NCBI GenBank assembly: GCA_903879915.1
Contig: CAIRNJ010000059.1
Location: 1 to 40,788, forward strand
Origin: an uncultured Elusimicrobia bacterium
Lineage (GTDB): Bacteria; Elusimicrobiota; Elusimicrobia; Elusimicrobiales; UBA9959
DNA length: 40,788 nucleotides
Direction: 5' to 3'
Made by a program: the position numbers and the translations under genes. Shown piece by piece: positions 2,805-17,082 of this stretch (positions are counted from its first letter, which is position 1; each line of letters begins with the position of its first letter). The notes under the pieces are model-generated. The model ran no database searches. It was given only the letters and a program-made list of their open reading frames with translations, and was not told the DNA's origin.

Positions 2805-2811
2805 GCAGCTT

Positions 2812-2820: not shown

Positions 2821-2826
2821 CAGAAC

Positions 2827-3579
2827 ATGAACAGATCGGCGGCAAAACTTTTCGCGCTGGCCCGGGTGGAATGGAACCTGCGCCAGCAGAGCACTTTCCT
2901 CGGCTTCCTCTGGACGCTGCTCAACCCGGCGCTGATGTTCGCGGTGCTGTACGGCCTGTTCGTGAAATGGCTGGGCCGCGCCCAGAGCGACTACGCCGTG
3001 TTCCTGCTCGTCGGCATAGTGGAATGGAACTTCTTCGCCTCGGCCACCTCCTACGCGCTGTCGAGCCTGCTGCGCCGCGGCCCCCTGCTGGGCAGTTTCC
3101 CCGTCGCGTTCGAAATACCGGTGCTGGGCTCGGTGCTCAGCGTGTATTTCTCCCACCTGCTGGAACTGGCCGCCCTCGCCGCGCTGCTGGCCTTCGTTCA
3201 CCACGGCCTGCCGGTGTCCTGGCTGTGGCTGCTACTGATAGACCTGGCCTACCTGGCGCTGGCCTCGGGCGTCAGCCTGGCGCTGGCCGGGCTGTTCGTG
3301 TTCTGCTCCGACCTCGAGCGCATCTGGAGCCTCCTGCTCACCGCGGGCTTTTTCCTGACCCCGGTGTTCTACCCGCTGGCCGTCATAGCCCCGGAAAAAA
3401 GCCGCCTGCTCGCGTTCAATCCCCTTACGGCGATACTGGAAAGCGCGCGGCTGGCCCTTTCCGGTTCGGCCCCGGCCGCCGGCACGGTGCTGTACGCCTT
3501 CCTGTGGGGCGCGGCCGCGCTGGCGGCCGGGCTGGCTTTCCTGCGCCTCAACCGCTCCGCCCTGCAGGACGCGCTATGA
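2827..3579 (+). CDS. ABC-2 type transporter permease, polysaccharide-export type
   Basis: This 250-residue inner-membrane protein resembles the permeases of O-antigen and teichoic-acid exporters (Wzm/TagG kind). The N-terminal amphipathic stretch ARVEWNLRQQSTFLGFLW leads into the first membrane helix, and the family's GIVEWNFFASATSY segment follows. About six hydrophobic segments are visible, ending in a helix before FLRLNRSALQDAL. Such permeases act as dimers with a separate ATPase and move lipid-linked glycans to the periplasmic side. The partner ATPase starts in the stop codon (ATGA overlap at 3576), so the two are cotranscribed and coupled. The transported substrate is unknown; adjacent GT4 and radical SAM genes suggest a modified glycan, lipid or peptide conjugate. 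Confidence 0.88.
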   Translation: MNRSAAKLFALARVEWNLRQQSTFLGFLWTLLNPALMFAVLYGLFVKWLGRAQSDYAVFLLVGIVEWNFFASATSYALSSLLRRGPLLGSFPVAFEIPVLGSVLSVYFSHLLELAALAALLAFVHHGLPVSWLWLLLIDLAYLALASGVSLALAGLFVFCSDLERIWSLLLTAGFFLTPVFYPLAVIAPEKSRLLAFNPLTAILESARLALSGSAPAAGTVLYAFLWGAAALAAGLAFLRLNRSALQDAL

Positions 3580-5168
3580 CCGGCCTGTCCGTGCTCGCCG
3601 TGACCAAAACCTACCGCGTGGAACTGCCGCGCGCCGACGCGCTTTCCTCCCTTATCCGCTTTTTCAGCGGCCGCTCCCCCACGCGGGCGTTCAACGCGCT
3701 GGAGGATATCTCCTTTTCCCTCGCGCCCGGCTCGGCGCTGGCCGTGTGCGGCCCCAACGGCTCGGGCAAGACCACGCTGCTGAAAGTGCTGGCCGGCATC
3801 GCCGCCCCCTCCGGGGGCTCCGTGACCTTCGCCGGAAAGAAAGTCTGCCTGCTGGGCTTCGCCTCCATCCTGCAGGACCGTCTCAGCGTGAGGGAGAACG
3901 CCCGGCTCTGCGCCGTTTTCTTCGAACTGCCGGGCTCCGCGGCGGAGAACGCCGAAAAGATAATGGAGGCCGGCGCTCTGTCCGACCTGTGCAACGCCCG
4001 GGCGGGCGAGCTGTCGGCCGGCATGCGGCTGCGCCTGCCTTTCATGGCGGCGCTGCTGTCGGGGGCAGACCTGTACCTTATCGACGAGGCTCTGGCCGTC
4101 GGGGACGCCGCTTTCCGCGCTAAATGCCTGGCCGGGCTGAACGCCCTCAGACAGCGCGGCGCCATCCTGGTGTTCGCCACGCACGACCAGGCCCTGGCGC
4201 GCGCCATGGCCGATACGGCGCTGATGCTCGAAGCGGGGCGCATGACCTTTCTGGGCCCGGTCGGCGGACTGCCGGCCCCGGCGCAGGCCGCCGCACCGGG
4301 CGAGGCCTTCCTGGCCGGCCTGAAGCGCTTCGCGCTGCTTTATGAGCAGCTGAAGGCCGCCGGGTTCAGGCTGAAGGAGTCGGCCCGCGCCACCGACGAA
4401 GAACTGCTGCTGGCGCACACGGCCTCCTGGCTGGCCCGGCTTAAAGCCAACGACCTTACCCCCGAAGAGGAGCGCAGCCGGGCCCTGCCTCATTCCAGGG
4501 ATATCCTGCCCCTGGCCTGGCGCATGGCCGGCGGCACCATAGCCGCCGCGCGCGCCGCGGCCGCCTCGGGCGGCCTGGGCGTCTACCCGCCCGGCGGCGG
4601 GCACCACGCTTTCCCCGGCGGGGGCGAAGGCTTCAGCCCCGTCAACGACATAGCCGTAGCCGCCAGGGTGCTGCTCAGGGACGGGGCCGTGAAGCGGCCG
4701 GCCGTCATAGACCTCGACGCGCATCAGGGCAACGGCACCGCTTTTATTTTCGCTGACGGCGCGGTAAAGACCTTCTCCGCCCACCGGGCCGACGGCTACC
4801 CGGCCCGCCGGGTGCGCTCCTCCATGGACGTGGACCTCCCGGCCGGAGCGGACGGCGCTGCCTACCTGGCCGCAGTGAAAAGAGGAGTGGAGGATTTTCT
4901 GGAGCTGGCGCAGCCGGACTTCGTCTTCGCCCTTTGCTCGGCGGACGCTTACGAGGGCGACGCGCTGGGCGGGCTGAAGGTCAGCGAGCAAGGGCTGCGG
5001 CAGCGGGATGAATTCCTGTTCAAAACACTGGCAGAGAAGAAACTGCCGGCCTGCCTGGTGCTCAGCGGGGCCTACAGCGCGCCCGAAGCGGCCGCGCGGA
5101 TAAATTTCAATACGATACAGGCCGCCGCCGCGGCCTTCGGCGCCGCCGGCGCGGAACTAAACGTTTAG
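3576..5168 (+). CDS. ABC transporter ATPase fused to a histone-deacetylase-like amidohydrolase domain
   Basis: One open frame encodes two complete-looking enzymes (530 residues). Residues 1-235 are an exporter ATPase: Walker A GPNGSGKT at 59-66, signature LSAGM at 146-150, Walker B LYLIDE ending at D170/E171, switch histidine H203. From about residue 245 to the end it matches bacterial class II-type histone deacetylase / acetylpolyamine amidohydrolase proteins: FALLYEQL, ATDEELLLAHTASWL, GGGHHAF, EGFSPVNDIAVAAR, DLDAHQGNGTAF, SAHR, ADAYEGDALGGLKVS. The expected catalytic set is present: H343/H344, zinc ligands D381, H383 and D457, and Y500. The first ~20 residues of a normal deacetylase are missing or replaced by a Pro/Ala-rich linker. 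In Wzt-type ATPases a C-terminal extension binds the exported glycan; here a deacetylase may take that place (inference). The gene overlaps the permease gene (ATGA) and converges on the next gene with a 4-base overlap. Confidence 0.88.
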   Translation: MTGLSVLAVTKTYRVELPRADALSSLIRFFSGRSPTRAFNALEDISFSLAPGSALAVCGPNGSGKTTLLKVLAGIAAPSGGSVTFAGKKVCLLGFASILQDRLSVRENARLCAVFFELPGSAAENAEKIMEAGALSDLCNARAGELSAGMRLRLPFMAALLSGADLYLIDEALAVGDAAFRAKCLAGLNALRQRGAILVFATHDQALARAMADTALMLEAGRMTFLGPVGGLPAPAQAAAPGEAFLAGLKRFALLYEQLKAAGFRLKESARATDEELLLAHTASWLARLKANDLTPEEERSRALPHSRDILPLAWRMAGGTIAAARAAAASGGLGVYPPGGGHHAFPGGGEGFSPVNDIAVAARVLLRDGAVKRPAVIDLDAHQGNGTAFIFADGAVKTFSAHRADGYPARRVRSSMDVDLPAGADGAAYLAAVKRGVEDFLELAQPDFVFALCSADAYEGDALGGLKVSEQGLRQRDEFLFKTLAEKKLPACLVLSGAYSAPEAAARINFNTIQAAAAAFGAAGAELNV

Positions 5169-5980
5169 AACATCAGGGCCAGGAAGAAAAGCTCCGCCAG
5201 CGCCAGCGCGTCGTAATAGCCCCTGGCGCGCTCCTTCAGCGCGCCCAGCGCGAAAGCCGTTATGGTCAGCTGCGCGGCCGCCGAAACATACAGCCCGGAG
5301 AACAGGTCGGAGGCGCCCGACGCCAGCGTGAGCGCGCTGATCGCGGCCAGCACCGGCGCGCGCCCGAGCGCGCCGGGGAGCGTGCGCACCCCGGCCCTGG
5401 CGTCGCCGCTCAGGTCGCGCACGTCGAAGAGCAGCGTAAGGCTCAGCACCATCAGCAGCAGCTTGTACGAGCCCGCCAGCAGCTGCGGCAGATAAGCCCA
5501 GGCCCCGGCGTCGCGCAGCAGCATGGGGCTCATTACCGAGACCAGGAACAGGTTCAGCGTGTTTATCAGGGGCTTGAGCAGCAGCGCCCTTTTCAGGCGC
5601 AGCAGCGGGTGGCTGTAGGCGAAAGCGACGGCCGCGCTGTAGAGCAGCACCGGCACGAGCGGCGGCCGCAGCAGCGCCAGGGCGCAGCAGACGAAGATGA
5701 ACGCGGCGGCCAGGCCCGGGCGCCAGGCCTTCCTGCAGGGGCCGGAGAACAGGTCCTCCTCGCCGTTGAAGCCGTCCTCGGCCCGGTCGTAAAGCTTGTT
5801 GAACAGGTAGCCCAGCTGCAGCAGCGCGGCGAACCCCAGGCCGCAGAGCAGCTCGGCGCGCGACACGCCCCCGTCCGTCCTGCGGCAGACGATAAAATAG
5901 ACCAGCAGGTAAAGCGCCACTATGTGCGTGCGCAGGGCCAGCGGCAGCGCCAGCCGCCTTTTCATGTCCGCGGTATTCAT
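5165..5980 (-). CDS. UbiA-superfamily prenyltransferase
   Basis: This is a 271-residue integral membrane prenyltransferase. The two aspartate-rich motifs of the UbiA family are both present: N61-x3-D65-x3-D69 (NKLYDRAED) and D186-x2-D189-x3-D193 (DVRDLSGD). They bind the Mg-diphosphate of an isoprenoid donor. About eight hydrophobic segments surround them. The acceptor could be an aromatic ring, a sugar phosphate or a porphyrin; the sequence does not decide, and no quinone or heme genes lie nearby. The gene is divergent from the nitrilase-like gene across a 22-base gap, and its stop TTA overlaps the opposing TAG of the ABC-deacetylase gene. An ATG 15 bases downstream is an alternative start. 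Confidence 0.85.
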   Translation of the reverse strand: MNTADMKRRLALPLALRTHIVALYLLVYFIVCRRTDGGVSRAELLCGLGFAALLQLGYLFNKLYDRAEDGFNGEEDLFSGPCRKAWRPGLAAAFIFVCCALALLRPPLVPVLLYSAAVAFAYSHPLLRLKRALLLKPLINTLNLFLVSVMSPMLLRDAGAWAYLPQLLAGSYKLLLMVLSLTLLFDVRDLSGDARAGVRTLPGALGRAPVLAAISALTLASGASDLFSGLYVSAAAQLTITAFALGALKERARGYYDALALAELFFLALMF

Positions 5981-5986
5981 TTGTTA

Positions 5987-5996
5987 TATAATTTTA
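5987..5996. promoter_or_regulatory. Overlapping divergent -10 elements between the prenyltransferase and nitrilase-like genes
   Basis: The 22-base divergent gap is AT-rich. On the plus strand TATAAT lies at 5987-5992, ten bases before the ATG at 6003. On the minus strand TAAAAT (5996 to 5991) lies ten bases before the ATG at 5980. Both would give RNAs with very short or no leaders. No convincing -35 hexamers are visible. Use of the two elements would be mutually exclusive because they physically overlap. Confidence 0.42.
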
Positions 5997-6002
5997 ACAG
6001 AT

Positions 6003-7154
6003 ATGCGGCCGACCGACGCTTTGAAAATAATAAAACAGCTGCTGCCCGGGGCTTTGCTGCTGGCGGCGCTGCTGCCGCTGCGGCCGCTGCCCGCGCGCGC
6101 CGCTCCCGCCCAGGCCAGGGTGGTAGGAATACAGATAGCGGTCTCCCCGCACATTTACCGCAGCCGCCGGGTTTTCGAGGCCCGCCTGGAGGAAGCCGTC
6201 TCGGCCGCCGTCAGGCAGTCGGGCAGGCGCCCGGGCGAGGAGCTGGTGCTGGTGCTGCCCGAGCATTTCGGCACTTTCCTTTCTTTTCTCGACGAGCTGG
6301 GCCCTATCTACTCGGCCCCCTCACGCCCGGTAGTGGCCGGCCTGCAGGTGCTGACCAGCCCGCGTTTCATGGCCTATCACCTGAAGAGCGCCTGGAAAGC
6401 GCGCAACCCCGGGATCCTGGCCACGTACTTCGTATTCCAGAACCTGCTGCGCTACAAGGCAGAAGGCCTGTGGAAGACGTATACCGAAGTATTCTCCGCC
6501 CTGGCCAGGCGCCATAAAGCCATCATAGTGGCCGGGTCAATCTGCGTCCCCCGCCCCGAGGACCTGGGCAGGCTGCTGGCGCCCATCTACGGCACCTCCG
6601 CCGTTTTCGGGCCCGACGGCTCCATCCTGGGCATAGCCCGGAAAGTCCACCCCGTCCTCGAGGAAACGATGTTCCTTACCCCCTCGCCCGCCGCCGACCT
6701 GAAGCCGATAAAGACTCCGGCGGGGCTGCTGGGCGTGCTGATCTGTTCGGATTCCTGGTTCGAAGACACCTACCTGAGCCTGCGCGGCGCCGGGTTCCTC
6801 GCCATTCCCAGCATCAGCGAAGGCGGCCACGCGGTCTTCTCGAAGGAACTAAAGGGGATAAAGAACAACCAGCTCGACGTGGCCGAGCCGCAGGGCGGCG
6901 GGCCCGGCAGCGTGATGAGCCAGCTGCTGGCCAGAGGGGCCGCGGGGCGCATTTTCCTCACCGGCGCCTCGGGGGCGGTGCAGCCGCTGCTCAGCGGCCG
7001 GATGTGGGACCTTGAATCGGGCGGGCCCGGCATAATCGTCAGGCGCACCGGAAAAAAAGTAGCGCTGGAATTCGTCGACAGCATCGAGGGCCGCGACACT
7101 TTCATGAACTTTCTCTGGCTTAAAAAAAATACCGGCGCCGGGGGTAAGTTATAG
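6003..7154 (+). CDS. Exported carbon-nitrogen hydrolase (nitrilase superfamily)
   Basis: A 383-residue nitrilase-fold protein. The Glu-Lys-Cys triad is visible: E87 in VLPEHFG, K214 in ARKVHPVLEE and C248 in GVLICSDSW. Residues 8-35 form a hydrophobic helix followed by ARAAPAQ, a likely signal peptide or membrane anchor, so the domain probably sits in the periplasm. That is unusual, since most nitrilases are cytoplasmic; apolipoprotein N-acyltransferase is the known periplasmic-facing member, but it has several more membrane helices. The reaction could be amide hydrolysis or acyl transfer to an amine. I place the start at 6003 because it follows a TATAAT and gives a clean signal sequence; the frame is open upstream to 5922 inside the divergent gene. 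The following radical SAM gene starts eight bases after the stop. Confidence 0.8.
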   Translation: MRPTDALKIIKQLLPGALLLAALLPLRPLPARAAPAQARVVGIQIAVSPHIYRSRRVFEARLEEAVSAAVRQSGRRPGEELVLVLPEHFGTFLSFLDELGPIYSAPSRPVVAGLQVLTSPRFMAYHLKSAWKARNPGILATYFVFQNLLRYKAEGLWKTYTEVFSALARRHKAIIVAGSICVPRPEDLGRLLAPIYGTSAVFGPDGSILGIARKVHPVLEETMFLTPSPAADLKPIKTPAGLLGVLICSDSWFEDTYLSLRGAGFLAIPSISEGGHAVFSKELKGIKNNQLDVAEPQGGGPGSVMSQLLARGAAGRIFLTGASGAVQPLLSGRMWDLESGGPGIIVRRTGKKVALEFVDSIEGRDTFMNFLWLKKNTGAGGKL

Positions 7155-7162
7155 AACGGCCC

Positions 7163-8620
7163 ATGGATATCCTCCTGCTGTCGCAGGACGAAACGCACCC
7201 CTTTTACGCCGGCGTCAACGCCTATTTCTCCGCGCCCGTGCTGGAAGCCGTCGGCCCCCGCGAGCTGCTGACCGCGCCGCCCCTGGGCATAACGCTGCTG
7301 GCCACGAGCCTCAACAGCCGGGGCTTCAAAGCCGTCCCGGTGCATAATTTTTTCACCATGGAAGAAAGCCGCCGGCGCCTTGTGGCCGGGCTCGAAGCGC
7401 GGCCTTTCGCGGTCTGCATCTCCACCACGCACACCTTCACTGAAAAGCTCATGGGCGAGATAACCGGCCTGGTCAGGCGCGTGTCGCCGGACAGCGCGCT
7501 GATAGTGGGCGGGCCCGGGGCGGAATGGAACGAGGCCCTGCGCCCCCCGGACGCGATAACGGTGTTCGGCCCGGGCGAGGACGCGCTGCCGCGCCTGCTC
7601 GCGGCGCTGCAGGCGGGCGGCGGCCTGGCCGGCGTGCCCAACCTCAGCTATCTGAAGGACGGCGTACGGCTGGAGACGGCGCGCGAGCACAGCTCACCCA
7701 TCGGCTCCGTGCCGGAGCCCGACTGGGGCCTCTACCCGTCGGCGCCTTCCAAAGTGCCGGTGCAGGGCTCGCGCGGCTGCGCCCGGGCCTGCGGCTTCTG
7801 CGCCTATGCCGGCCCGGCCGAGGCCAGGCCGCCGGCGGCCGTCCTGTCCGAGGTGCTCAACAACAGGCGCAAATGGGGCATCGATTTTTTCCGGTTCACG
7901 GATTCGGACTTCGCCGCGGACAGGGACAGGGCGCTGGAGCTCTGCCGCGGCCTGGAGCGCGAGTGCGGCTTCTCCTGGACGTGCTTCGCGCGCGCCGACA
8001 GCCTGCTCGACGCCGGCCTGTGCGCCGCCATGCGCCGCGCCGGCTGCCTGTGGGTATTCCTGGGCGTGGAATCCGGCTCCGACGCCATCCTGAAAGCCAT
8101 GAACAAAGGCTGCGGGACCGCCCTGATGCGCGAGGCCGTAAGAACGATAAAGGCGGCCGGCATCGGGACGCACGGCAATTTCGTGGTAGGCTACCCCGGC
8201 GAGACCGCCGCCACCGTGGCGGAAACGCTGGACTTCGCCCTGACCGCGGGCCTGGACACCGTTTACTATTCCCCCTTCCAGCTCCGCAGCCGCGCCATTC
8301 CCGCCTACCGCTCCCGCGCCGCTTACGGGCTCGAAGGACACGCCGGCGGGTGGCGGCACGCTACCATGACCTCGGCGGAGACCCTGCAGCATACGCTGGA
8401 GCTCATGCGCACGACCTGGCTCAGCCCCGGCGCGCCGCTGCTTACCAGCGAGGCGCTGTTCTCCCTGTTCTCGAAGGGCGAAGGCGAAGCCTTCCGGGCG
8501 AACGTCTCCGGCTTCTTTGCCGCCATCCGCGACTGGCACCGGGCGAAGTACGCCGAAGACAGGCCCGCCGCGGAGCTCGCCCTGGGCGCTATGCGCGCAT
8601 ATTTAAATGACAAGAACTGA
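7163..8620 (+). CDS. B12-binding-domain radical SAM protein
   Basis: A 485-residue protein with the layout of cobalamin-dependent radical SAM enzymes. The N-terminal Rossmann-like domain (about 1-150) contains MDILLLSQDE, LTAPPLGITLLATSL and the IVGGPGAEWN and VFGPGEDALP segments. The classical DxHxxG cobalamin histidine is not evident, so B12 may be held base-off or not at all. The radical SAM core follows with cluster cysteines C206, C210 and C213 (CARACGFC), then FRFTDSDF, FLGVESGSDAIL and NFVVGYPGET. Members methylate or rearrange unactivated carbons in peptides, lipids and antibiotics. The gene lies eight bases after the nitrilase-like gene and overlaps the next radical SAM gene by 14 bases, placing it in the same unit as the PqqD-like protein. 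Confidence 0.87.
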   Translation: MDILLLSQDETHPFYAGVNAYFSAPVLEAVGPRELLTAPPLGITLLATSLNSRGFKAVPVHNFFTMEESRRRLVAGLEARPFAVCISTTHTFTEKLMGEITGLVRRVSPDSALIVGGPGAEWNEALRPPDAITVFGPGEDALPRLLAALQAGGGLAGVPNLSYLKDGVRLETAREHSSPIGSVPEPDWGLYPSAPSKVPVQGSRGCARACGFCAYAGPAEARPPAAVLSEVLNNRRKWGIDFFRFTDSDFAADRDRALELCRGLERECGFSWTCFARADSLLDAGLCAAMRRAGCLWVFLGVESGSDAILKAMNKGCGTALMREAVRTIKAAGIGTHGNFVVGYPGETAATVAETLDFALTAGLDTVYYSPFQLRSRAIPAYRSRAAYGLEGHAGGWRHATMTSAETLQHTLELMRTTWLSPGAPLLTSEALFSLFSKGEGEAFRANVSGFFAAIRDWHRAKYAEDRPAAELALGAMRAYLNDKN

Positions 8621-9566
8621 ACGCGGCAACGCAGCGCAAATCCCGCCGCGCAACAGCGCGGGGCTGAAGGCTTTCAGGCAGCTGGCCCCGGACAACCGGC
8701 TGGCCCTGGCCGTCCTGAACAGGCGGCTCGCCGCGCTGCCCGCCGGCGTTCCGCACACGCTGATCCTGGGCCTTACGCGCCGCTGTCAGCTGCGCTGCGC
8801 CCATTGCCGCTACCTGCAGCCGCCTTACAACGGCCCGGTGCCCCCGGACATGAGCCCGGCCCTGGCGCGACGGGCCCTGCGCCTGGCCGCGGCGGCCGGC
8901 ATCCCGCGGATTATTTTTTTCGGCGGCGAACCCACGCTGTACGCCCGCCTGCCCGAACTGGTCAGGGAGGCGGCCGGGCTGGGGCTGTTCGCCGAAATGG
9001 ATACCAACGGCCTGCTGCTGCTGGACCCTCGGCTGCTGCGCAGGCTGCGCGCGGCGGGCCTGGCCGCCGTAAGGATAAGCCTGCATGCCGCCGGCCGGGC
9101 CGCTCACGACGCGCTGGCCGGGCCCGGCACCTTCGATAAAGCCGGCAAAGCCCTGAAAGCCGCGCGGCGCGCCGGCCTGCTGGTCTATCTTTCCTCCTGC
9201 GTCTTCTCCGGGTCCGGGGGCGGGCGGCTGCCCGGGCTGCTGCGCTTCGCCAAAGCTTCGGGGGCGCACGGCGTACGGCTGTTGCCCTATTCAGGCGCGC
9301 CCGGCGCCGCTTTTCATCCGGCCGCGCTTTTTACGAAAGTGAAAGCCGCCAGCCCGGACAGGTACGCCAGGACCTGCCTCTCCGGCGGCACCGGGGCCTG
9401 CGCGGCCGCCGCGCGGGAGATCCTGTACATAGACCAGCGGGGCGCGATAAAGAGCTGCCCGTATTCCGGGAGGACGCTGGGCAGCATAAAGACCGCGTCC
9501 CTGGCGCCCGTCCTGCGCCGGCGGCGTACGGGACGGGCGCTTTTCCCCTGCCGGCAGGCCGCCTGA
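8607..9566 (+). CDS. Radical SAM protein with SPASM-like C-terminus, next to PqqD-like gene
   Basis: A 319-residue radical SAM enzyme with cluster cysteines C60, C64 and C67 (CQLRCAHC) and the SAM-binding FFGGEPT at about 104-110. The C-terminus has cysteines in ARTCLSGG, TGACAAA, KSCPYSG and FPCRQ, interspersed with ILYIDQRGAIKSCP, the usual pattern of a SPASM/twitch auxiliary-cluster region. In PqqE, AlbA and similar maturases such an enzyme acts on a ribosomal peptide delivered by a PqqD-type recognition domain. Here a PqqD-like gene begins 17 bases after the stop, and a 34-residue peptide gene follows it. A peptide substrate is therefore likely but inferred. The ATG sits inside the preceding radical SAM gene. 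Confidence 0.85.
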   Translation: MTRTERGNAAQIPPRNSAGLKAFRQLAPDNRLALAVLNRRLAALPAGVPHTLILGLTRRCQLRCAHCRYLQPPYNGPVPPDMSPALARRALRLAAAAGIPRIIFFGGEPTLYARLPELVREAAGLGLFAEMDTNGLLLLDPRLLRRLRAAGLAAVRISLHAAGRAAHDALAGPGTFDKAGKALKAARRAGLLVYLSSCVFSGSGGGRLPGLLRFAKASGAHGVRLLPYSGAPGAAFHPAALFTKVKAASPDRYARTCLSGGTGACAAAAREILYIDQRGAIKSCPYSGRTLGSIKTASLAPVLRRRRTGRALFPCRQAA

Positions 9567-9568
9567 TG

Positions 9569-9577
9569 TGCTAAAAT
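9569..9577 (+). promoter_or_regulatory. Extended -10 promoter element before the PqqD-like gene
   Basis: TGC-TAAAAT is an extended -10 with the hexamer at 9572-9577. Six bases separate it from the ATG at 9584, the same spacing as at 2812-2820. It would let the PqqD-like, peptide, acyltransferase and kinase genes be expressed separately from the upstream radical SAM genes, as a leaderless RNA. The 17-base gap contains no Shine-Dalgarno sequence. Confidence 0.5.
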
Positions 9578-9583
9578 AACCTT

Positions 9584-9868
9584 ATGAAGGAAGAGAAAAA
9601 AAGCGCGTTGATAGCCCAGGCCGTAACGTGGCGCAAGACCGGAGAGGAAGCGGTGATCCTTAACCTGGAGACCTCCGAATATTATTCGGCCAACGAAACC
9701 GGCACCTTCATCTGGGAACAGCTCAGCGCCGGGAAAAAGCCGGGAAAGATAGCCGCGGCGCTGGCCGAAGAATACGGCATACCGCCGGCCCTGGCGGCGG
9801 AGGACACCGCGGCCTTCCTTAAAGACCTCACGCAGCTCAAGATACTTGCCCCTGAGGCGAAAAAATGA
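9584..9868 (+). CDS. PqqD-family protein (RiPP recognition element-like)
   Basis: A 94-residue protein of the PqqD fold, a small winged-helix domain that grips leader peptides of ribosomally made, modified peptides and hands them to the modifying enzyme. The family pattern is clear: AVILNLETSEYYSANETG, IWEQLSAGK, a central helix EIAAALAEEYG-like (here GKIAAALAEEYG), and the closing helix DTAAFLKDLTQLKIL. Length is typical for a free-standing PqqD. It sits directly after a radical SAM/SPASM-like gene, and its stop overlaps the ATG of a 34-residue peptide gene (ATGA). This order is what one expects of recognition element plus substrate. Some PqqD-fold proteins occur in loci with no proven peptide product, so the role is inferred from context. 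Confidence 0.88.
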   Translation: MKEEKKSALIAQAVTWRKTGEEAVILNLETSEYYSANETGTFIWEQLSAGKKPGKIAAALAEEYGIPPALAAEDTAAFLKDLTQLKILAPEAKK

Positions 9869-9969
9869 AACCGATAAAAAAAACTGCCCCGAAAGCGAAG
9901 AAGTACCAGAAACCCAGGGTGAAGTCGCATGGTAAGATAAGTGAAGTCGCTTCCGCCTTCAAGCCGTAG
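9865..9969 (+). CDS. 34-residue peptide, candidate RiPP precursor (leader-like)
   Basis: A short frame starts in the stop of the PqqD-like gene (ATGA) and ends at TAG 9967-9969. The peptide is basic in its first half (MKPIKKTAPKAKK) and continues Y14-x2-P17-x-V19-x3-G23-x5-A29, ending ASAFKP. Lasso-peptide leaders carry YxxPxLxxxGxxxxxT, which PqqD-type B1 proteins bind; the match here is in register, with Val for Leu and Ala for Thr. By that alignment only about four to five residues remain as a core, so either the core is tiny, the C-terminal part is itself the substrate, or the peptide acts as a carrier. No lasso cyclase is present in the window. The last 29 bases overlap the GTG-started acyltransferase gene. 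The existence of the gene is inferred from overlap, motif and context. Confidence 0.6.
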   Translation: MKPIKKTAPKAKKYQKPRVKSHGKISEVASAFKP

Positions 9970-10918
9970 AACGGCTTTCCTTTTTCCCGGTTCCGGCGCG
10001 CAGCACGTCGGAATGGGCCGCGCGCTGCGCAGCGCTTTCCCCGTAATAGAAGATCATCTCCGCCGGCTGGACAAGACGCTCGGCTACCCGCTCTCCGGCG
10101 CGATGGACGGGCCGCCGGCCCTCCTTTTCCCCCCCATGCATTCGCGCACGCCTACCATATTCATGGAAGTTACCATGGCACTTTCGCTCTCCGTCGCCCG
10201 CGCGCTGCAGCGCGCCGGCGCGGCGCCCGGCGCGCTGGCGGGGCGCAGCATGGGGGAATACAGCGCCGCCGCGTTCGCTGGGGTCTTTTCCGAGAAGGAC
10301 TGTTTCAGAATGGTCAGGACCGTCACGAGCAGGGGCCAGGAGGACTGCCAGGCGACCCCGAGCTCGCTGGTCACCGTTTACGGGCTGAGCAGGACGCAGC
10401 TGCGCGCGGTGGCCGCCGGCATGAAAAAAGCCGGGCATCTCTGCGACGTGGTGGCGTTCTACGACAAGCCCCGCCTGGGCGTGGCCGGCCTGCGGAATGC
10501 CAGCCTCCCGGAACTCAAGGCCAGGCTCGCCCCTTTCAGGCACAAGCTCTCCGTCTCGAAGGAAAGCGGGGCCTTTCACAGCACCCTTTTCGACCGGCTG
10601 GCCGCCCGGGCGCGGCGCTATTTCGGACAGATAGAATTTGCCGCCCCCGCCGTTCCGCTGTACCTGAACCTCGACGGCCGGCGCGAGGCCGGCCCCGCGG
10701 AAATAAAAAAGAAGCTCGCCTCGGCCCTGAACCGCCCGGTGCTCTGGCAGGAGACCATCCATAACATGCTGGCCGACGGCGTGCGCACGTTCGTGGAACT
10801 GGCGCCGGGAGCCATGCTCACCGAGTTCGTCTGCGCCCTGCCGCCCGACGCCGAGGTGCTGCGCACCGACACGCCGGAGAATTTCAAGCGCGCGCTGCGC
10901 AGGCTGGCCGCCGGATGA
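9941..10918 (+). CDS. Malonyl/acyl-CoA:carrier acyltransferase (FabD/PKS AT-like)
   Basis: A 325-residue stand-alone acyltransferase of the FabD / polyketide AT family. The opening motif FLFPGSGAQHVGMG replaces the usual FPGQGSQ. The nucleophile elbow GRSMGEYSA puts the serine at 103; TSRGQED supplies the conserved arginine at about 131; H213 in SGAFHSTLF completes the Ser-His pair. The C-terminal half has the NRPVLWQETIHNML and FVELAPGAMLTEF segments of the family. The GTG at 9941 is the only plausible start upstream of the first motif. No ketosynthase or carrier protein lies in the window, so this is unlikely to be a fatty-acid gene. It may load an acyl group for attachment to the local peptide or glycan (inference). 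Its stop overlaps the HprK-like gene (ATGA). Confidence 0.85.
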   Translation: MKSLPPSSRRTAFLFPGSGAQHVGMGRALRSAFPVIEDHLRRLDKTLGYPLSGAMDGPPALLFPPMHSRTPTIFMEVTMALSLSVARALQRAGAAPGALAGRSMGEYSAAAFAGVFSEKDCFRMVRTVTSRGQEDCQATPSSLVTVYGLSRTQLRAVAAGMKKAGHLCDVVAFYDKPRLGVAGLRNASLPELKARLAPFRHKLSVSKESGAFHSTLFDRLAARARRYFGQIEFAAPAVPLYLNLDGRREAGPAEIKKKLASALNRPVLWQETIHNMLADGVRTFVELAPGAMLTEFVCALPPDAEVLRTDTPENFKRALRRLAAG

Positions 10919-11922
10919 CCGCTCTGCATACCCGCCTGTTCGATCTCGCCGGCTGCGTGCTGCGGTTCGGCTGCGCCGACGAGGAACTGGCGGACCGGCT
11001 GGCGGCCGACCTCGCGGCCTTCCCGGCGGCGCCGGGCGCGGTACCGGAGATAACGATAACCGCCGTCCTGGCGGCCCCCGGCCGCGCCCGCCCCCCCGCC
11101 CTGCTGGGCACCGCGAAATGGAGCATCCTTTCAGCCCCCCCGGGCCGGCGGCTGGTCTGGTACCCCGAAGGCGCGCTGTGCGAATACGATTACCGCGCCC
11201 GCCGCGGGCAGGTGACCAGCGCCGACGCCGGCCTGCTCTGGGAACTTTCCTACCTGCTGCTGCTTTCCCGCGCCGGCGAGGCGCTGGACCTGCGGGGCCT
11301 GCACAGGCTGCACGCCGGGGCGCTGGGCTTCGGCGGCCGCGCGCTGCTGCTGTGCGGCGCGCAGCGCGCCGGCAAGACCACGCTGGGCCTGGAGCTGCTC
11401 AAGGACAAGGACTTCTCGCTGCTCTCCGACGATACGCCGCTGATTGCCGCGGACGGCACGGTGCACGGCTTTCCCGCCCGCATAGGTTTGGGCGGGGACA
11501 GCCCGCACCTGAAGAGCTTCGCGCGGCTGCGCGCCTTTACGCGCAGGCATTATCCGCCCAAGCAGCTGCTGGACATCCGCGGCTCCGGGCTGGAGCTTTC
11601 CCCCCCGCTGCCTCCGTCGTATATTTTCAGGCTTTACAGAGGCGTCCGCCCGGCGCTGCGCCGCCCCGCCGCCGGGGAAGCCGCCTGGGAACTTGCCAGG
11701 TCGCTGGTGGCGGGCTGGGGCGTGCCGCAGATGGCGGAATATTTCCTGCGCCTGTCCCCCGCGGACCTTTGCAGCAAGGCGCGGATACTGGCGGCGCGCG
11801 TAAAGGCCGCGCGCGCGCTGGCAGCAAAAACTCAGTTCTGGACCTTCGAAACGGGCCCGGACCACGCCGCCAACGCGGCGGCCCTCAAAGCTTTTCTTCG
11901 CAGCGGCAGCGCCCCGGCCTAG
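10915..11922 (+). CDS. HprK-like kinase (PqqD/lasso-locus type)
   Basis: A 335-residue protein whose second half resembles the catalytic domain of HPr kinase/phosphorylase. Landmarks are LHAGAL (H133), Walker A GAQRAGKTT at 148-156 with K154, and SLLSDDTPLI with D172/D173, in the order typical of HprK-related proteins. The N-terminal ~100 residues resemble the nonconserved N-terminal part of such proteins and lack the PTS-sensing HprK domain. HprK-like kinases in some lasso clusters phosphorylate the peptide C-terminus (family knowledge); here the PqqD-like gene and peptide lie just upstream. The start overlaps the acyltransferase stop, and the 3' end overlaps the convergent GT2 gene by 38 bases. 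True HPr regulation is unlikely because no PTS gene is near. Confidence 0.78.
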   Translation: MTALHTRLFDLAGCVLRFGCADEELADRLAADLAAFPAAPGAVPEITITAVLAAPGRARPPALLGTAKWSILSAPPGRRLVWYPEGALCEYDYRARRGQVTSADAGLLWELSYLLLLSRAGEALDLRGLHRLHAGALGFGGRALLLCGAQRAGKTTLGLELLKDKDFSLLSDDTPLIAADGTVHGFPARIGLGGDSPHLKSFARLRAFTRRHYPPKQLLDIRGSGLELSPPLPPSYIFRLYRGVRPALRRPAAGEAAWELARSLVAGWGVPQMAEYFLRLSPADLCSKARILAARVKAARALAAKTQFWTFETGPDHAANAAALKAFLRSGSAPA

Positions 11923-12910
11923 GCCGTCCCCGCAATTTTTCCAGCAGCCCCTCCAGCGCGCCGTACAGCCAGCCGGCCGCGTAGGCCGCGTGCAGCACGG
12001 GAAAAAGCAGGAACACGGCCGGCTTTACCGCCGGGCGCGCGCCGCACCGCGCCGCCGCGGCCAGCGAAACCGCGGCGTAGGCTGCGGCCGCCGCGCCCAG
12101 CAGGCTGGGTCGGCGCACGGCGGCCCAGGCGGCCAGGCTCAGCGCCGCCGGCGGCAGCAGCGTAAAAGCGGTGAGGGCGGCCGGGCGGAGCAGCGTTATC
12201 TGCGCCCGCCCGCGCCCGGAGTTAAAGACCTGCCCGGCGAAAGCGCGCAGCGCCCGCCGGCGGCGGTGCACCAGGTTCAGGTCCCCGCTCAGGAGCATGC
12301 GCGCCCCCGCGCCGGCCATGCGGCCGAGCAGCAGGTTCTCCTCCGCGCTGGTAAGGTGCCCTTCGAAAGCCAGGCCGTGCCGCCGCAGGAATTCACGGTC
12401 AAGCGTAAGGTTGCACAGGATGAATTTTTCCGGCCCGGCGGCGCGGGTGCCTTCGACCGGCGCGAAGCGCTCGGTGAACGGCCCGCCGCCCCACGGCGAG
12501 GCCAGCAGCGCGTAAACGGCCGCCTCGAAACCTCTGGCGCCGGGGGCCAGCTGCTGTCCGCCGCCGAACACGGCGCACTCCGGGTGCGCCCGTATCAGCG
12601 CGGCCAGGCGTTCGAAATACCCGGGCGGCAGCAGCGTGTCGTCGTCGAGAAAGCACAGCCGGCGGCCGCGCGCCAGGGCGGCCAGCGCGTTGCGCGCCTC
12701 GCCGCGGCACCTGCCCGGCAGCGCCACCGCGGTCACCGCCGGGCCGTAAGCCTCCAGCAGCGCCAGCGAGGCGGGGTCGGGGCCGTTCACCCCCACCAGG
12801 AACTCGGGCGGGCGCTGGCCGGCCGCCAGGGCGCTGTCGAGGAAGGCGCGCAGCAGCTCGGGCCGCCCGCGCGTGATCACTATCACGCTTATGCCGGTCT
12901 CAGCTGGCAT
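11885..12910 (-). CDS. Glycosyltransferase family 2 with C-terminal membrane helices
   Basis: A 341-residue GT-A type transferase. The N-terminus GISVIVITRGRPELLRAFLDS is the nucleotide-binding start of GT2 proteins, and LCFLDDDTLLPPGYF carries the metal-binding DxD. A later EENLLLGRM segment fits the usual acidic base region. From about residue 240 three hydrophobic segments (around AALTAFTLLPPAALSLAAW, LLGAAAAAYAAVSLAAA and PAVFLLFPVLHAAYAAGWL) anchor it in the inner membrane with the active site in the cytoplasm. Its ATG lies inside the 3' end of the upstream 1100-residue gene, an 11-base overlap, so the two are coupled. The 3' end overlaps the HprK-like gene on the other strand. Donor and acceptor are unknown. 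Confidence 0.85.
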   Translation of the reverse strand: MPAETGISVIVITRGRPELLRAFLDSALAAGQRPPEFLVGVNGPDPASLALLEAYGPAVTAVALPGRCRGEARNALAALARGRRLCFLDDDTLLPPGYFERLAALIRAHPECAVFGGGQQLAPGARGFEAAVYALLASPWGGGPFTERFAPVEGTRAAGPEKFILCNLTLDREFLRRHGLAFEGHLTSAEENLLLGRMAGAGARMLLSGDLNLVHRRRRALRAFAGQVFNSGRGRAQITLLRPAALTAFTLLPPAALSLAAWAAVRRPSLLGAAAAAYAAVSLAAAARCGARPAVKPAVFLLFPVLHAAYAAGWLYGALEGLLEKLRGRPRPGRCRCEEKL

Positions 12911-15900
12911 CGGCCAGTTCCCCCAGCGCGGCGGTCTGCCCGGCTATAAAACAATAATTGTCGGCCCCCGCGCCGCCGGCGCAGTAGGCGGCCCACGGCG
13001 GCACGGCGCCGCCCGGCGCCAGCGCCGCGCGCAGGCGCTCGGGGTCGGAAAAAGGCAGCGCCGTGTTCTTTTCCAGCAGCAGGCGCAGGCCCAGGGCCCG
13101 GGTGTAGAAATAATGCGGCGGCATTTCAGCCCAGAGGGAGCGCCAGGCGGCGCAGAAGTGCCGCGCCGCCAGTACGGCCGCCGCGCGCAGTTCCGGGGCC
13201 TGCGGCGCGGCGCCCCTGTGAACGAGGTTGTAGCAGTAAACCCCGCCGTCCTCCGGCCGGTAGCCGCCCGGGAGGCCGCCGGCGCGCAGGTCGAGGCTGA
13301 AAGCCGGGTTGTTAAGGTAAGGCAGGCGGCACAGCAGGGCGAAAGCGCTGCGGGTAAGCACCAGCGGCGACGCGCCCAGCGCCGGAGACGCCGCGCGCAG
13401 GCGGCCCAGCGCGGAGCAGGCGCGCAGGAACAAAGCCCGGTCCCCGGCGGCCTCGTCGGGCAGTACCAGGTACACGCGGTAAAGCGAGTCCAGCACCACG
13501 CCCGGCCGGCCCCCGCACTCTTCGCCCAGGCCGCGGCAGGCGGCGTCGAACGCGGGCCGGTTGAACCAGCCGGCGGCGGCCTCCGGGCCCGGTTCAAGGA
13601 GTATCTGTGCGTCCGCGCCGGCGGCGGCCTGGTGCAGGGCCTGGAAAGCCCCGTAGGCGGCCTCGCCGCGGCTCACGGCCATAAAATCCTCCAGCGGCAG
13701 GCCCAGCAGGCGCGCGTAAGCCCGGCGCGACGCGCGCTCCGGCGCCGGCGGAGCCAGGTAGCGTTTTATATCCACCAGGCTCTTAAGGCAGTTCCTGCGC
13801 GCGAAAGCCTCCGGCAGCCCGCCGGCCAGGAAATGCCGGGTAAGCAGCGTATAAGCGTAGAACGCCTCCGTAAGGTCGGCCGTGCCGGCGGCCGCGGGCG
13901 CGGGCTTCAGTTCAACGGCGGCGCCGTAAAGCAGGCGGGAGGCGGCGGAGAATTCCGCTCCTTTTACGCCCCAGCTGCCGAGGAAAGCCGCGAATTCCGG
14001 GGCCTGGGCCAGCAGCACCTCGCCGGTGAACGGGAAAAGCCTTTTCAGCAGGCGCAGCCGGCGGCGCAGCGCGCGGTACACTTCGTATTCCCCGCGCGGC
14101 GCGGCGGGCCGCAGCACGCAGGCGAGGTCCATGTCGCTCAGCCCCGCCACCCAGCCTTTGGCGGCCATCCCGCGGTACAGGTACAGCGCGCGCACTCCCG
14201 GCATGCCCAGCAGGCGGCTTGCGGCGGGCACGGCGGCCAGGTAAAAAAGGCGGTACAGCGCGGAAAAGCCGGGCAGGCGCGCGGTGGCCGCGGCGAACAG
14301 AAAAAGCCGGCCCGGCCTGGCGGGAGCGGCGGCGGCGGGCTTCAGCCAGGGGCGGCCCTCGTAGGAAACCTCCGCCGCCTCCAGCCGCCGCCAGTCGCCG
14401 CAGACGATGCCGGGGAACGGCGTGCCGGAGATCCTTACTTTGAGCAGGGAAGCCCGGCCGCCGTCCAGCAGCAGCGCCGACGGGCCGCCCTCGCAGGCCG
14501 AATCCGAGACCGAAACAACGGCCCCGCCCCGGACCGTCAGCGCCGGCGCCGCGCGGTGCGCGAAAGTGCAGCCGGCCAGTTTCCCGGCGCAGCCTTCAGA
14601 AAATGAAAACCCGGGGCCGGCGCCGCCGGAAACGCAGCCGGCGAGCTCGGCCCGGCCGCCGGAGAGAACGCCGGCTGCGCCTTGCTGCCCCTCGAAAACG
14701 CAGCCCTCCAGGCGCAGGGCGTTGCGCCCTTCGGCCTCCAGGCCGGAGGCGTTGCGCCGGAAAGCGCAGCCCGAGAACGCCGCCCGGGTGCGGCCGCTGA
14801 AAGCGGCGGCAGGCCCCGACTGCCCTTCGAACAGACAGTTCTTAAGGCGCAGCGAAGCGCTGCCCCCGGCGAACAGGCCCGCCGCGTTGCGGGCGAACAC
14901 GCAGGCCTCCGCCGACAGGAACGCGGCGCCGGAAAGCTCCGCGCCGCAGCCGGAATTTTTTTTCAGGCCGCAGTTCTTCAGGAACACCCTGGCCGCGCCG
15001 GCCGCCGAAACTCCGGCGGCGCAGCCTTCTATGGCCGTGCCGGACAGCCCGGCGAACGCGCGCCCGGAGGCCTCCACGGCCGGCCCGGCGCCGCCGGTGA
15101 AAGCGCCGCCGCACACCGCGGCCGCGGCGGCGTCCAGCACCCTGAGGCCGGGGCCGCCGGAGCCGGCAACCGCGCAGTTCAGCGCCGCCAGCCGGGCGCG
15201 GCCCGAGAGCTCGATGCCCAGGCGGCAGGCCCGGAATTCGCAGTTCCTGGCCTCCAGGCCCGCGTCGTCGCGGGCGCTCAGGGCGGTTGCCGCGGCTCCC
15301 TCCAGGCGGCAGCCGTCCAGCGCCGCCGCGCCGCCGGCCAGCGCGTGAATGCCGCCGAAAGAAGGGCCTTTAAAGACGACCGGGGCCTGGGCCCGGCCCC
15401 GGGCGGAAAACCTGCCGTAAACCAGCAGCTTGGCGCTGGCGCTGTCCAGTTCGCGCAGCGCGCCGTCGGCGCCGGAGCGCAGCACGGGGAAGAACCACGG
15501 CTCCCGCCTTTCGAAAGTGATGATCGTGCCCGGCAGCACGCTGACGGCCGCGCCGCGCTCGATGGTAAGATAATCGGCCACTATTATGCTGCCCGACCAG
15601 GTCTCGTCGGCGGTTATGCGGCCGCTCTTCACCTCCGCGGCCCCGGCGGGCGCGACCCCGGCGGGCGCGGCCCCGGCGGCGGGCCGCACGGCGGCGGCCA
15701 GCTTGCGTACGGCGGCGGGGTAAAGCCCGGCCTCCCAGCGCAGGTAAAGCGCGTTGAGCAGCGCCGCGAAAGAGCGCGGCAGGCAGACGGCGGCGGCGGC
15801 GAACAGGAAATAGGCGCAATGGACCGCCCAGGACAGCAGCTTGCCGGCGGCGAAGGACCAGGCCGCGGCCAGCGGCCAGGCCCGGCCCGGCGCGGCCGAC

Positions 15901-16202
15901 CAGGCGCGGCCGGCGCGCGAGACCCGGGTTATCCTGGCCACCGGCTGAAAAGCGGAAGGAGGCAGGTCGGGCAGGAAATTCGCGTCCCCCTTCGTCAGCA
16001 GCAGCCGGCGGCTCCCCGCCCGGGCATTGAGCAGCACGCGGTGGATCACGTAGCCGGCGGGCCGCCCGCCCGCCCATTTCACCAGCAGCGCCACCTCGCC
16101 CGCGCGCAACTCCCCGGCCTGGCAGGGCAGGGCCAGCGCCGAATCGCCCGGCTCGAGCAGGAAGCGCATGGAATGGCCGAGCACCGGGTAGGTCTTGGTC
16201 AA
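12900..16202 (-). CDS. S26 signal-peptidase-like / beta-helix / nucleotidyltransferase fusion protein
   Basis: A 1100-residue protein with an unusual domain order. Residues 1-95 resemble S24/S26 peptidases of the SipW/Sec11 kind: VLGHSM (S11), VIHRVL (H54 where bacterial leader peptidases have Lys) and TKGDANFLPD (D73). A hydrophobic stretch lies at about 124-143. Residues ~195-620 are a right-handed beta-helix of degenerate units such as LKNCLFEGQSG, SGCAFRRNASG and LEGCVFEGQQG. From about 670 a minimal nucleotidyltransferase motif appears (GLSDMD, 687-692), followed by a helical region to the C-terminus that I cannot assign. I chose TTG at 16202: it overlaps the upstream stop as TTGA, has AGAAGG just upstream, and starts right before the peptidase motif. 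Uncharacterised nucleotidyltransferases and S26 peptidases are known neighbours of PqqD/HprK loci. Activities are inferred. Confidence 0.75.
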   Translation of the reverse strand: MTKTYPVLGHSMRFLLEPGDSALALPCQAGELRAGEVALLVKWAGGRPAGYVIHRVLLNARAGSRRLLLTKGDANFLPDLPPSAFQPVARITRVSRAGRAWSAAPGRAWPLAAAWSFAAGKLLSWAVHCAYFLFAAAAVCLPRSFAALLNALYLRWEAGLYPAAVRKLAAAVRPAAGAAPAGVAPAGAAEVKSGRITADETWSGSIIVADYLTIERGAAVSVLPGTIITFERREPWFFPVLRSGADGALRELDSASAKLLVYGRFSARGRAQAPVVFKGPSFGGIHALAGGAAALDGCRLEGAAATALSARDDAGLEARNCEFRACRLGIELSGRARLAALNCAVAGSGGPGLRVLDAAAAAVCGGAFTGGAGPAVEASGRAFAGLSGTAIEGCAAGVSAAGAARVFLKNCGLKKNSGCGAELSGAAFLSAEACVFARNAAGLFAGGSASLRLKNCLFEGQSGPAAAFSGRTRAAFSGCAFRRNASGLEAEGRNALRLEGCVFEGQQGAAGVLSGGRAELAGCVSGGAGPGFSFSEGCAGKLAGCTFAHRAAPALTVRGGAVVSVSDSACEGGPSALLLDGGRASLLKVRISGTPFPGIVCGDWRRLEAAEVSYEGRPWLKPAAAAPARPGRLFLFAAATARLPGFSALYRLFYLAAVPAASRLLGMPGVRALYLYRGMAAKGWVAGLSDMDLACVLRPAAPRGEYEVYRALRRRLRLLKRLFPFTGEVLLAQAPEFAAFLGSWGVKGAEFSAASRLLYGAAVELKPAPAAAGTADLTEAFYAYTLLTRHFLAGGLPEAFARRNCLKSLVDIKRYLAPPAPERASRRAYARLLGLPLEDFMAVSRGEAAYGAFQALHQAAAGADAQILLEPGPEAAAGWFNRPAFDAACRGLGEECGGRPGVVLDSLYRVYLVLPDEAAGDRALFLRACSALGRLRAASPALGASPLVLTRSAFALLCRLPYLNNPAFSLDLRAGGLPGGYRPEDGGVYCYNLVHRGAAPQAPELRAAAVLAARHFCAAWRSLWAEMPPHYFYTRALGLRLLLEKNTALPFSDPERLRAALAPGGAVPPWAAYCAGGAGADNYCFIAGQTAALGELADAS

Positions 16203-17005
16203 CGGGCCTTCTTCAGCCTTCGCCCGTCGGTCTCCAGGTACGGGTCGAGCTCGTCGAGGAATTCCAGGGCCTTGCGGCACCACTTGTCCACGAACACTTC
16301 GCGGTTGCGCACCGCCCAGGAATGGAAATGCTCGTGCCCCTTGAAGCTGGAATGGTCGCGGTGCGCCACGAAAACGTCCTTGGCCACTTTCAGGGTCCAG
16401 CCGGCCTGCCGCAGGCGCAGCGAATAATCCAGGTCCTCGAAGCAGCCCACGCCGAAGCGCTCGTCCAGCAGCCCTATGCTTTCGTACGCGGCGCGCCGGA
16501 GCATGAAGCAGAAGCCTACCAGGCGGTGCACCTCGAAAGCCTCCGCGGGGAATTTCAGCGCCATGGCCTGGGCGAACAGCCGCAGGGAGGCTGGGTCCTT
16601 TTCCAGTTCGGGGGCCAGCACCACCCGCTGCACGCCCACCGTGCGGTTGGTCAGCGGGCCGCAGGCCCCCGCCCGGGCGTCGGCGTCCAGGCAGGCGGCC
16701 AGGCCCTGCAACCCGCCCTGGAAGAAAACGATGTCGCTGTTGACCACGGCCAGGTAGCGGCCGGCGGCCCTTTTCAGGCCCTGGTTGACGGCTTTGGCAA
16801 AGCCCAGGTTGGAGGCGTTGCGCAGCTTCACCGCGTTCTTCACCGACGCGAGATAACGGCGCGTCTCCGGGCCGGAAGCGTTGTCCACCAGGATGAGCTC
16901 GTACGCGCCGCGCGCCGTGGCCTCCAGCGAGGCCAGGCAGGCTTTCAACTCGGCGGGCGCGTTGTGCACGGGGATGATGACGCTTATCTGTTTTTCTTTT
17001 GCCAT
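16199..17005 (-). CDS. Glycosyltransferase family 2 (rhamnosyltransferase-like)
   Basis: A 268-residue GT-A transferase without membrane helices. ISVIIPVHNAPAELKACLAS opens the fold, YELILVDNASG and ASNLGFAKAVNQGLKRA follow, and VVNSDIVF supplies the DxD-like NSD. RRAAYESIGLLDERFGVGCFEDLDYSLRLRQAG is the acceptor-side segment with the ED pair typical of WbbL-like rhamnosyltransferases. I place the start at 17005 (MAKEKQIS) rather than an ATG 27 bases upstream, because a perfect extended -10 lies between them. It is the first gene of a three-gene minus-strand unit with the peptidase/beta-helix fusion and the second GT2, each pair overlapping. The sugar is not determined. Confidence 0.88.
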   Translation of the reverse strand: MAKEKQISVIIPVHNAPAELKACLASLEATARGAYELILVDNASGPETRRYLASVKNAVKLRNASNLGFAKAVNQGLKRAAGRYLAVVNSDIVFFQGGLQGLAACLDADARAGACGPLTNRTVGVQRVVLAPELEKDPASLRLFAQAMALKFPAEAFEVHRLVGFCFMLRRAAYESIGLLDERFGVGCFEDLDYSLRLRQAGWTLKVAKDVFVAHRDHSSFKGHEHFHSWAVRNREVFVDKWCRKALEFLDELDPYLETDGRRLKKAR

Positions 17006-17015
17006 GTCAGGATTT

Positions 17016-17024: not shown

Positions 17025-17068
17025 TTTGCCAATTCCGCCGGGGCGGCGCCGAAGCGCGCCTAATTTAC

Positions 17069-17074: not shown

Positions 17075-17082
17075 TACTTTCA

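Follow-up and report, generated by a model that had tools for sequence, protein, structure and literature searches.

The window analyzed here, 40,788 nucleotides of the forward strand of contig CAIRNJ010000059.1 (assembly GCA_903879915.1) from an uncultured Elusimicrobiota bacterium, carries an optional island of ~18 kb, from position 740 to ~18670. This island probably makes a ribosomally synthesized and post-translationally modified peptide (RiPP) under the guidance of a RiPP recognition element (RRE), in a pathway resembling those of linear polyphosphorylated peptides (LPP) and of phosphorylated lasso peptides but forming no lasso. It combines a conserved precursor peptide and a matching RRE with a protease domain, a kinase and a radical S-adenosylmethionine (SAM) protein whose motifs are intact, and these genes are inherited together. 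A first-pass annotation of the same DNA had proposed a RiPP-type locus at positions 7163-11922. The co-conservation of RRE, leader-type peptide, radical SAM protein, acyltransferase and HprK-fold kinase supports that proposal in part, and all six genes named in it are present; its range, however, was too narrow, as the functional unit extends from ~740 to 18670.

The precursor peptide and its predicted recognition element

The precursor is encoded by a small open reading frame (ORF; 9865..9969, plus strand) whose 34-residue product, MKPIKKTAPKAKKYQKPRVKSHGKISEVASAFKP, has no Pfam or NCBIfam family. Of the 17 related genomes with the island acyltransferase, 16 contain the ORF, and in the 17th it is interrupted by contig ends. 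An identical C-terminus, SAFKP, is found in 15 genomes, and one genome (G021) has two variants whose tails differ. Since the ORF occupies the same place in relatives and has a pN/pS of 0.11 (last 21 codons, 15 genomes), it does not represent a chance frame but is a real gene under strong purifying selection. The peptide claimed by the first-pass annotation, which had named conservation of the small frame in relatives as the point to check, is thus borne out. The peptide gene runs into the start of the acyltransferase gene in most genomes, and such an overlap alone could slow sequence change. Conservation as a by-product of this arrangement was rejected on the evidence of G056, which has no overlap and yet the identical tail.

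The predicted RRE-binding motif of the leader, YQKPRVKSHGKI (YxxPxVxxHGxI; 9904..9939, plus strand), recurs in all HG-type peptides of the phylum, and its Y, P, V, H and I coincide in position with those of the LPP motif YxxPxVLxHQxI (PMC13381572). If the register with the LPP leader numbering holds, the leader would be cut after Ala29, a position at which alanine is also found in several relatives, and the predicted core would be SAFKP (9952..9966, plus strand).

The putative partner of this leader is a discrete RRE of the PqqD family (9584..9868, plus strand; Pfam PqqD 68.8 bits), which the first-pass annotation had correctly recognized as PqqD-like. When compared with solved structures, a profile of this RRE built from 15 relatives matched the lasso RREs TbiB1 (1.5e-19), TfuB1 (5e-11) and PbaB1 (9x90; 2.1e-9) as well as the LPP RRE LppB (9x8z; 5.9e-9), with TbiB1 as the best match, ahead of LppB; true PqqD was matched just faintly. 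In LppB, N33 and D70 hold the Pro and Tyr of YxxP (PMC13381572). Two invariant residues of the RRE analyzed here, Asn37 and Asp74, align with N33 and D70 of LppB and show the same spacing of 37. Judged by these profile matches and reading residues, the RRE is of the lasso/LPP type.

The predicted peptidase-nucleotidyltransferase fusion and the putative modifying enzymes

A convergent gene (12900..16202, minus strand) encodes a fusion protein in which a right-handed beta-helix (Pfam Beta_helix 76 bits) lies between an archaeal-type signal peptidase domain and a nucleotidyltransferase (NTase)-like domain. The fusion is encoded by one uninterrupted frame, in the window as well as in about a dozen relatives, and Pfam searches with its separated ends yielded nothing or weak single-member matches. 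The N-terminal signal peptidase I (SpI; S26, SEC11-type) domain (15720..16202, minus strand), recognized by its profile and conserved residues, is probably the leader protease. Searched against the PDB, its profile found SEC11 signal peptidases and nothing else (7p2q, E 1e-5), with the GHSM, HR and KGDxN motifs aligned, and Ser11, His54, Arg55, Asp73 and Asp79 are invariant in 13 sequences. A structural model of the domain (pLDDT 86.5) has the S24/S26 fold. Foldseek matches to it were weak (best E 0.012), and VIA-align placed LexA-type S24 domains (Z 10.4) above signal peptidases (Z 8.2 and 7.8). By its structure the domain can thus be placed in the S24/S26 superfamily, and it is the sequence that assigns it to SEC11. 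An archaeal-type SpI peptidase cuts the leaders of LPP with the assistance of the RRE (PMC13381572).

The NTase-like domain (12903..14351, minus strand) contains an SDxD motif whose residues S72, D73 and D75 are invariant in 15 sequences, and its matches to known families are weak (1ylq, E 0.046; NTP_transf_2, E 0.12). The same fusion recurs in a second family of the class (G214, G211, G200, G194 and G202), and in two genomes (G024 and G046) its halves are encoded separately, on the two sides of an RRE gene.

The HprK/PEPCK-fold kinase (10915..11922, plus strand) is weakly labeled as HprK by its sequence (TIGR04352, 21 bits), and the claim of an HprK-like kinase in the first-pass annotation is borne out by its fold. 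An AlphaFold model (pLDDT 92.6) matched PEPCK over its full length, as a member of the superfamily (Z 18.7), and Coxiella HprK with Z 12.7 (rmsd 2.9 over 131 residues). His130, His133, Lys154 and Asp173 are invariant in 18 of 18 kinase sequences and Asp172 in 17 of them; the His-Lys-Asp-Asp residues were reported to be essential in lasso kinases (PMC9266682). Among 341 genomes, the kinase occurs in 55 and the NTase-like domain in 52, with both present in 48 (Fisher 5e-46), and the association persists outside the family (Fisher 1e-28); both values ignore shared ancestry. Moreover, RRE, kinase and NTase are found together with different neighbors in other families (G211, G230 and G214). Beyond the phylum, a relative of the kinase adjoins a PqqD gene in a metagenome-assembled genome (MAG) of Bdellovibrionota (L058), and another occurs together with NTase-like, glycosyltransferase and ATP-binding cassette (ABC) genes in an Altiarchaeota MAG (L061).

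The claims of a radical SAM protein and an acyltransferase were likewise confirmed. The core radical SAM protein (8607..9566, plus strand; CxxxCxxC; Pfam 75.8 bits) shares 39-52% identity with its counterparts in 12 relatives and has the invariant cysteines C60, C64, C67, C198, C257, C265 and C284. The FabD-fold acyltransferase (9941..10918, plus strand; Acyl_transf_1 70.8 bits) overlaps the peptide gene by 29 nt and probably starts at GTG 9941, since use of the next in-frame start, 10013, would lose conserved residues. Its Ser103 and His213 are invariant, and the column of the malonate-binding Arg of FabD holds V, F, M, Y or T in all 15 sequences. A function as malonyltransferase (FabD) was rejected on the basis of this column and of a score below the cut-off of the fabD model (129.8 versus 260.9 bits). 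With a non-basic residue where FabD binds malonate, the enzyme probably carries another acyl group than malonyl. Members of the acyltransferase subfamily occur in 17 genomes, each of which belongs to this family and has the kinase, and the next matches are far weaker. Relative to the window copy, the acyltransferases form two identity groups (65-72% and 42-51%). This grouping is not mirrored by the kinase identities, a mismatch that suggests exchange from one island to another.

Comparison with known peptide systems

The closest counterpart in the literature is LPP of Bacillota, a system with RRE, SpI peptidase, HprK-like kinase and NTP transferase but no lasso cyclase (Popov 2026, PMC13381572), which was described as restricted to that phylum (PMC13381572). 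The island shares with it the discrete RRE, the HprK-like kinase, the archaeal-type SpI domain, glycosyltransferase neighbors and the leader pattern Y..P.V..H..I, a lasso cyclase was likewise not seen among its scanned proteins, and the NTase-like domain, with its weak profile matches, would correspond to the LPP NTP transferase. It differs in that the SpI and NTase-like domains are fused with a beta-helix, a radical SAM protein and an acyltransferase are added, the exporter is of the Wzm/Wzt type instead of MsbA-like, and the host belongs to Elusimicrobiota. In addition, the tail comprises 5 residues compared to 45, with Ser at core position 1 and not 3, and the leader reads HG where LPP has HQ and lacks the FET motif, so that the Q and FETxxS parts of YxxPxVLxHQxIxFETxxS are unmatched. 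Three features of LPP are found, namely a YxxP-reading RRE, an SpI peptidase with Ser/His/Asp (here a fusion domain of predicted activity) and an HprK-like kinase, whereas the MsbA-like exporter, the full leader motif and the phosphorylated Ser3 are lacking. For this reason the locus is not filed as a member of LPP; it is a variant of the same kind. The statement in the first-pass annotation that no described system has this gene set holds for the exact combination with radical SAM protein and acyltransferase, but RRE, kinase, NTP transferase and SpI peptidase are already united in LPP (PMC13381572).

Similarities also exist to phosphorylated and glycosylated lasso peptides, such as those of paeninodin (PadeK), pseudomycoidin (PsmK/PsmN) and BsfK (PMC9266682; PMC10368454), which likewise involve a B1-type RRE, a YxxP leader and an HprK-type kinase with His-Lys-Asp-Asp, together with a nucleotidyltransferase to which the NTase-like domain would correspond. 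In contrast to these, no B2 protease, no cyclase and no lasso-sized core were seen in the island, and radical SAM protein and acyltransferase are added. No B2 leader protease (PF13471, Transglut_core3) scored over the cut-off in 35 genomes, that of the window included, and a lasso peptide was rejected on this ground. An asparagine-synthase-like lasso cyclase was absent from the scanned island proteins, the rest of the genome not having been searched for one. The first-pass annotation had listed neither a lasso cyclase nor a leader protease of the usual kind, but on the protease it was wrong, as the convergent fusion gene just outside its range encodes a probable, SEC11-like one.

SynChlorMet (TIGR04248-TIGR04251: ScmC, ScmD, ScmE and ScmF) resembles the island in joining a PqqD protein with radical SAM enzymes, and ScmC is a P-loop HprK-like protein. 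Assignment to SynChlorMet was rejected, with ScmD at 19 of 100, ScmF at 47.5 of 400 and ScmE at 34.5 of 400 bits, all far under the cut-offs, and no match to ScmC. HPr-rel-A was dismissed as well (TIGR04352 kinase 21 of 200 bits; TIGR04353 PqqD 17 of 35 bits). In the pyrroloquinoline quinone (PQQ) and mycofactocin pathways a short precursor is combined with PqqD and radical SAM enzymes, and its nearly invariant core comprises a few C-terminal residues. The island differs from both in that the PqqE, PqqD and mycofactocin models remain far under cut-off, the core residues are different, and kinase, NTase and acyltransferase are added. Literature searches on Elusimicrobia RiPPs, SynChlorMet and the ALACGKC motif returned nothing relevant.

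Proposed pathway and alternative explanations

From these data we infer a pathway in five steps. The 34-residue precursor would first bind the RRE via YQKPRV..HGKI, a motif that was computed together with the residues predicted to read it. The RRE may then offer the short C-terminus to the radical SAM protein, the HprK-fold kinase and the non-malonyl acyltransferase, and each of these enzymes would alter the last ~9 residues, which may include the acyl acceptor, or the product of another enzyme. By analogy with LPP and pseudomycoidin, the NTase-like domain and the glycosyltransferases could subsequently extend a phosphate or sugar part. Cleavage of the leader by the SEC11-type domain, probably after Ala29 if the LPP register applies, would yield a product based on SAFKP, which a Wzm/Wzt-type ABC exporter might finally secrete.

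Several points weigh against this pathway. The island contains no MsbA-like exporter, an ABC-2 permease and a separate ATPase being present instead, and the NTase assignment is based on a motif and matches at E ~0.05-0.12. The proposed acceptor Ser30 is not conserved, as G021 has Gly in its place and the peptides ending in EGD lack it; the position of S3 in the LPP core is occupied by Phe in the assumed register; and the predicted cores of 2-8 residues are small compared to the 45-residue LPP core. The precursor could furthermore serve as an uncut scaffold, a carrier following PEARL-type or amino-group-carrier logic whose short C-terminus bears the molecule under construction by the island enzymes, in which case the SpI domain would release something else. 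Tails of only 6-12 residues past the RRE motif and a C-terminus that is nearly invariant in the family, unlike the variable cores of bioactive RiPPs, would suit such a role. However, a SEC11-type peptidase with intact catalytic residues goes with the RRE, we noticed no PEARL-like ligase among the island genes, and G021 has two precursors with different tails, as in multi-core RiPPs; we regard a scaffold as unlikely, though worth keeping in view.

Several genes could also be part of a polysaccharide pathway that has nothing but the island in common with the peptide. Taken further, the whole would be an ordinary surface-polysaccharide or glycolipid island with an acquired RRE-peptide pair, its kinase, NTase and glycosyltransferases acting on sugars or lipids and the peptide being linked to them by location. 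Although the Wzm/Wzt-type exporter, three glycosyltransferases, UbiA and, in some cassettes, polyprenyl synthases would be at home in such an island, we consider this explanation distinctly unlikely, because RRE, kinase and NTase recur together among different neighbors (G211, G230 and G214), the kinase resembles RiPP-tailoring kinases in both fold and residues, and the LPP set sits in capsule loci and yet does modify a peptide (PMC13381572). It appears quite improbable that a B12-binding radical SAM protein methylates the peptide as a core step, a reading in line with the first-pass annotation, which had included this gene in its set. Its gene is adjacent to that of the core radical SAM protein and overlaps it by 14 nt, but an ortholog at this site exists only in the near-identical G047, the cassettes differ while the peptide C-terminus stays constant, and the best NCBIfam match, PhpK, is far under cut-off. 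A degraded lasso-peptide locus, finally, is hardly credible despite the lasso-like RRE and leader motif, given that no B2 protein (PF13471) exceeded the cut-off in the 35 genomes, no cyclase was seen in the block, the core is too short for a lasso and the genes are under selection. An RRE-guided, LPP-like peptide pathway thus remains the reading that we prefer.

Extent of the island and its variable cassette

The region from 740 to ~18670 is a single island that is either present or absent, since the uvrA and peptidase-MA genes adjoin each other directly in ten genomes of the same genus (the empty site), whereas the entire block lies between them in the window and in G056. The left flank is the end of uvrA (3..743, plus strand; the homologous frame L036 is UvrA with 1383.7 bits) and the right flank a peptidase-MA family gene (18679..19572, minus strand; Pfam 45.5 bits). 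The first island gene encodes a group 1 glycosyltransferase (740..1933, plus strand; Pfam Glyco_trans_1_4 64 bits) and is followed by that of a second radical SAM protein of 293 aa (1923..2804, plus strand; Pfam 36.6 bits). The exporter consists of an ABC-2 permease (2827..3579, plus strand; Pfam 46.7 bits) and an ABC ATPase that is fused in one frame with a histone-deacetylase-like domain (3576..5168, plus strand; ABC_tran 74 bits, Hist_deacetyl 144 bits), a fusion whose length is unchanged in relatives. Downstream of the core genes, a family 2 glycosyltransferase gene (11885..12910, minus strand; Pfam Glycos_transf_2 47.5 bits) is convergent with the kinase gene and adjoins it in nearly all relatives, and a second one (16199..17005, minus strand; Pfam 86 bits) is kept in island-bearing relatives. 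The last island gene (17083..18672, plus strand) encodes a conserved protein of 529 aa that has no Pfam or NCBIfam match; a plus-strand frame was also called at the same place in L025 and L030, and frames on the reverse strand at 17007-18597 are unlikely to be genes.

The central part of the island holds a cassette that, in the window and in G047, a relative with the same genes (95% kinase identity), comprises a UbiA prenyltransferase (5165..5980, minus strand; Pfam 40 bits), a carbon-nitrogen hydrolase (6003..7154, plus strand; Pfam 45 bits), whose ortholog at this place is likewise limited to G047, and the B12-binding radical SAM protein (7163..8620, plus strand; B12-binding 37 bits, Radical_SAM 71 bits). 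Other genomes have 27-36% relatives of the B12 radical SAM protein elsewhere, or none. Because the cassette differs between relatives, the B12 radical SAM gene, although present as annotated, was rejected as a core gene and is a swappable one; of the neighbors that the first-pass annotation had linked, radical SAM, RRE, peptide, acyltransferase and kinase genes stay together. The three cassette genes probably vary the decoration of the product. In G048 (L030:289-7704) the cassette consists of a methyltransferase, an MfnB-type 4HFCP synthase (238 bits), three polyprenyl synthases, a B12 radical SAM protein and a UbiA-like protein, with similar layouts in several other genomes, which suggests that the product includes an isoprenoid or furan moiety.

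A relic of the island was observed in G046, where kinase and glycosyltransferase alone, both with open frames, lie between the peptidase-MA and uvrA genes (L028 4237-6915). The RRE, NTase and SpI genes of this genome are located at a separate locus (L118), and the two loci may work together.

Related systems in the phylum

Elsewhere in the phylum, peptides with the motif [YW]xxPx[ILV]xxHGx[IL] and tails of 6-12 residues were found near RRE, kinase or NTase genes. Their tails include ...SQTALARSY, ...SKTALAHSY, ...EADVAAFSALY, ...EPEIRAFQLLY (G211), ...NSQIASFRTFY, ...SIVEGD and ...TTVAGIIVRE. In three loci of other genera (L113, L115 and L129), the precursors share the end KHGVLSIVEGD, with almost no core past the RRE motif.

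It is conceivable, and we suggest it only tentatively, that these peptides form a phylum-wide RRE-guided class with a shared core of kinase, NTase and SEC11-type protease, in which radical SAM, acyltransferase and isoprenoid cassettes provide lineage-specific tailoring. As the product part would be short (~2-8 residues) and nearly constant per lineage, it might become a defined small molecule, in the manner of PQQ and mycofactocin, or be a disposable scaffold. Systems of this general kind have been known since 2026, but the literature searched offers no precedent for the additional enzymes, the fusion protein, tails this short or a distribution across the phylum. If our interpretation is correct, LPP-like chemistry extends beyond Bacillota into a much more diverse branch within a phylum that is largely uncultured. 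Tails so short and so constant within a lineage suggest that the product is small and defined and not a variable antimicrobial peptide. The SpI-beta-helix-NTase fusion would join leader cutting with phosphate tailoring and make the role of the LPP NTP transferase testable, for which the approximately dozen precursors sharing one motif provide direct material for reconstitution.

A second, compact system was observed in related genomes, at L123:7456-10075, with similar arrangements in L117, L120, L121, L122, L124, L130, L133 and L134. It consists of a PqqD protein and a peptide (..Y.KP..K.E.[VI]FETAALACGKC..GP..Q.ACK.L...S), often accompanied by an HprK-like kinase, a small signal-peptidase-like protein and a PqqE-like SPASM radical SAM protein. 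The peptide belongs to no NCBIfam family, and its FETxAL motif resembles the LPP leader.

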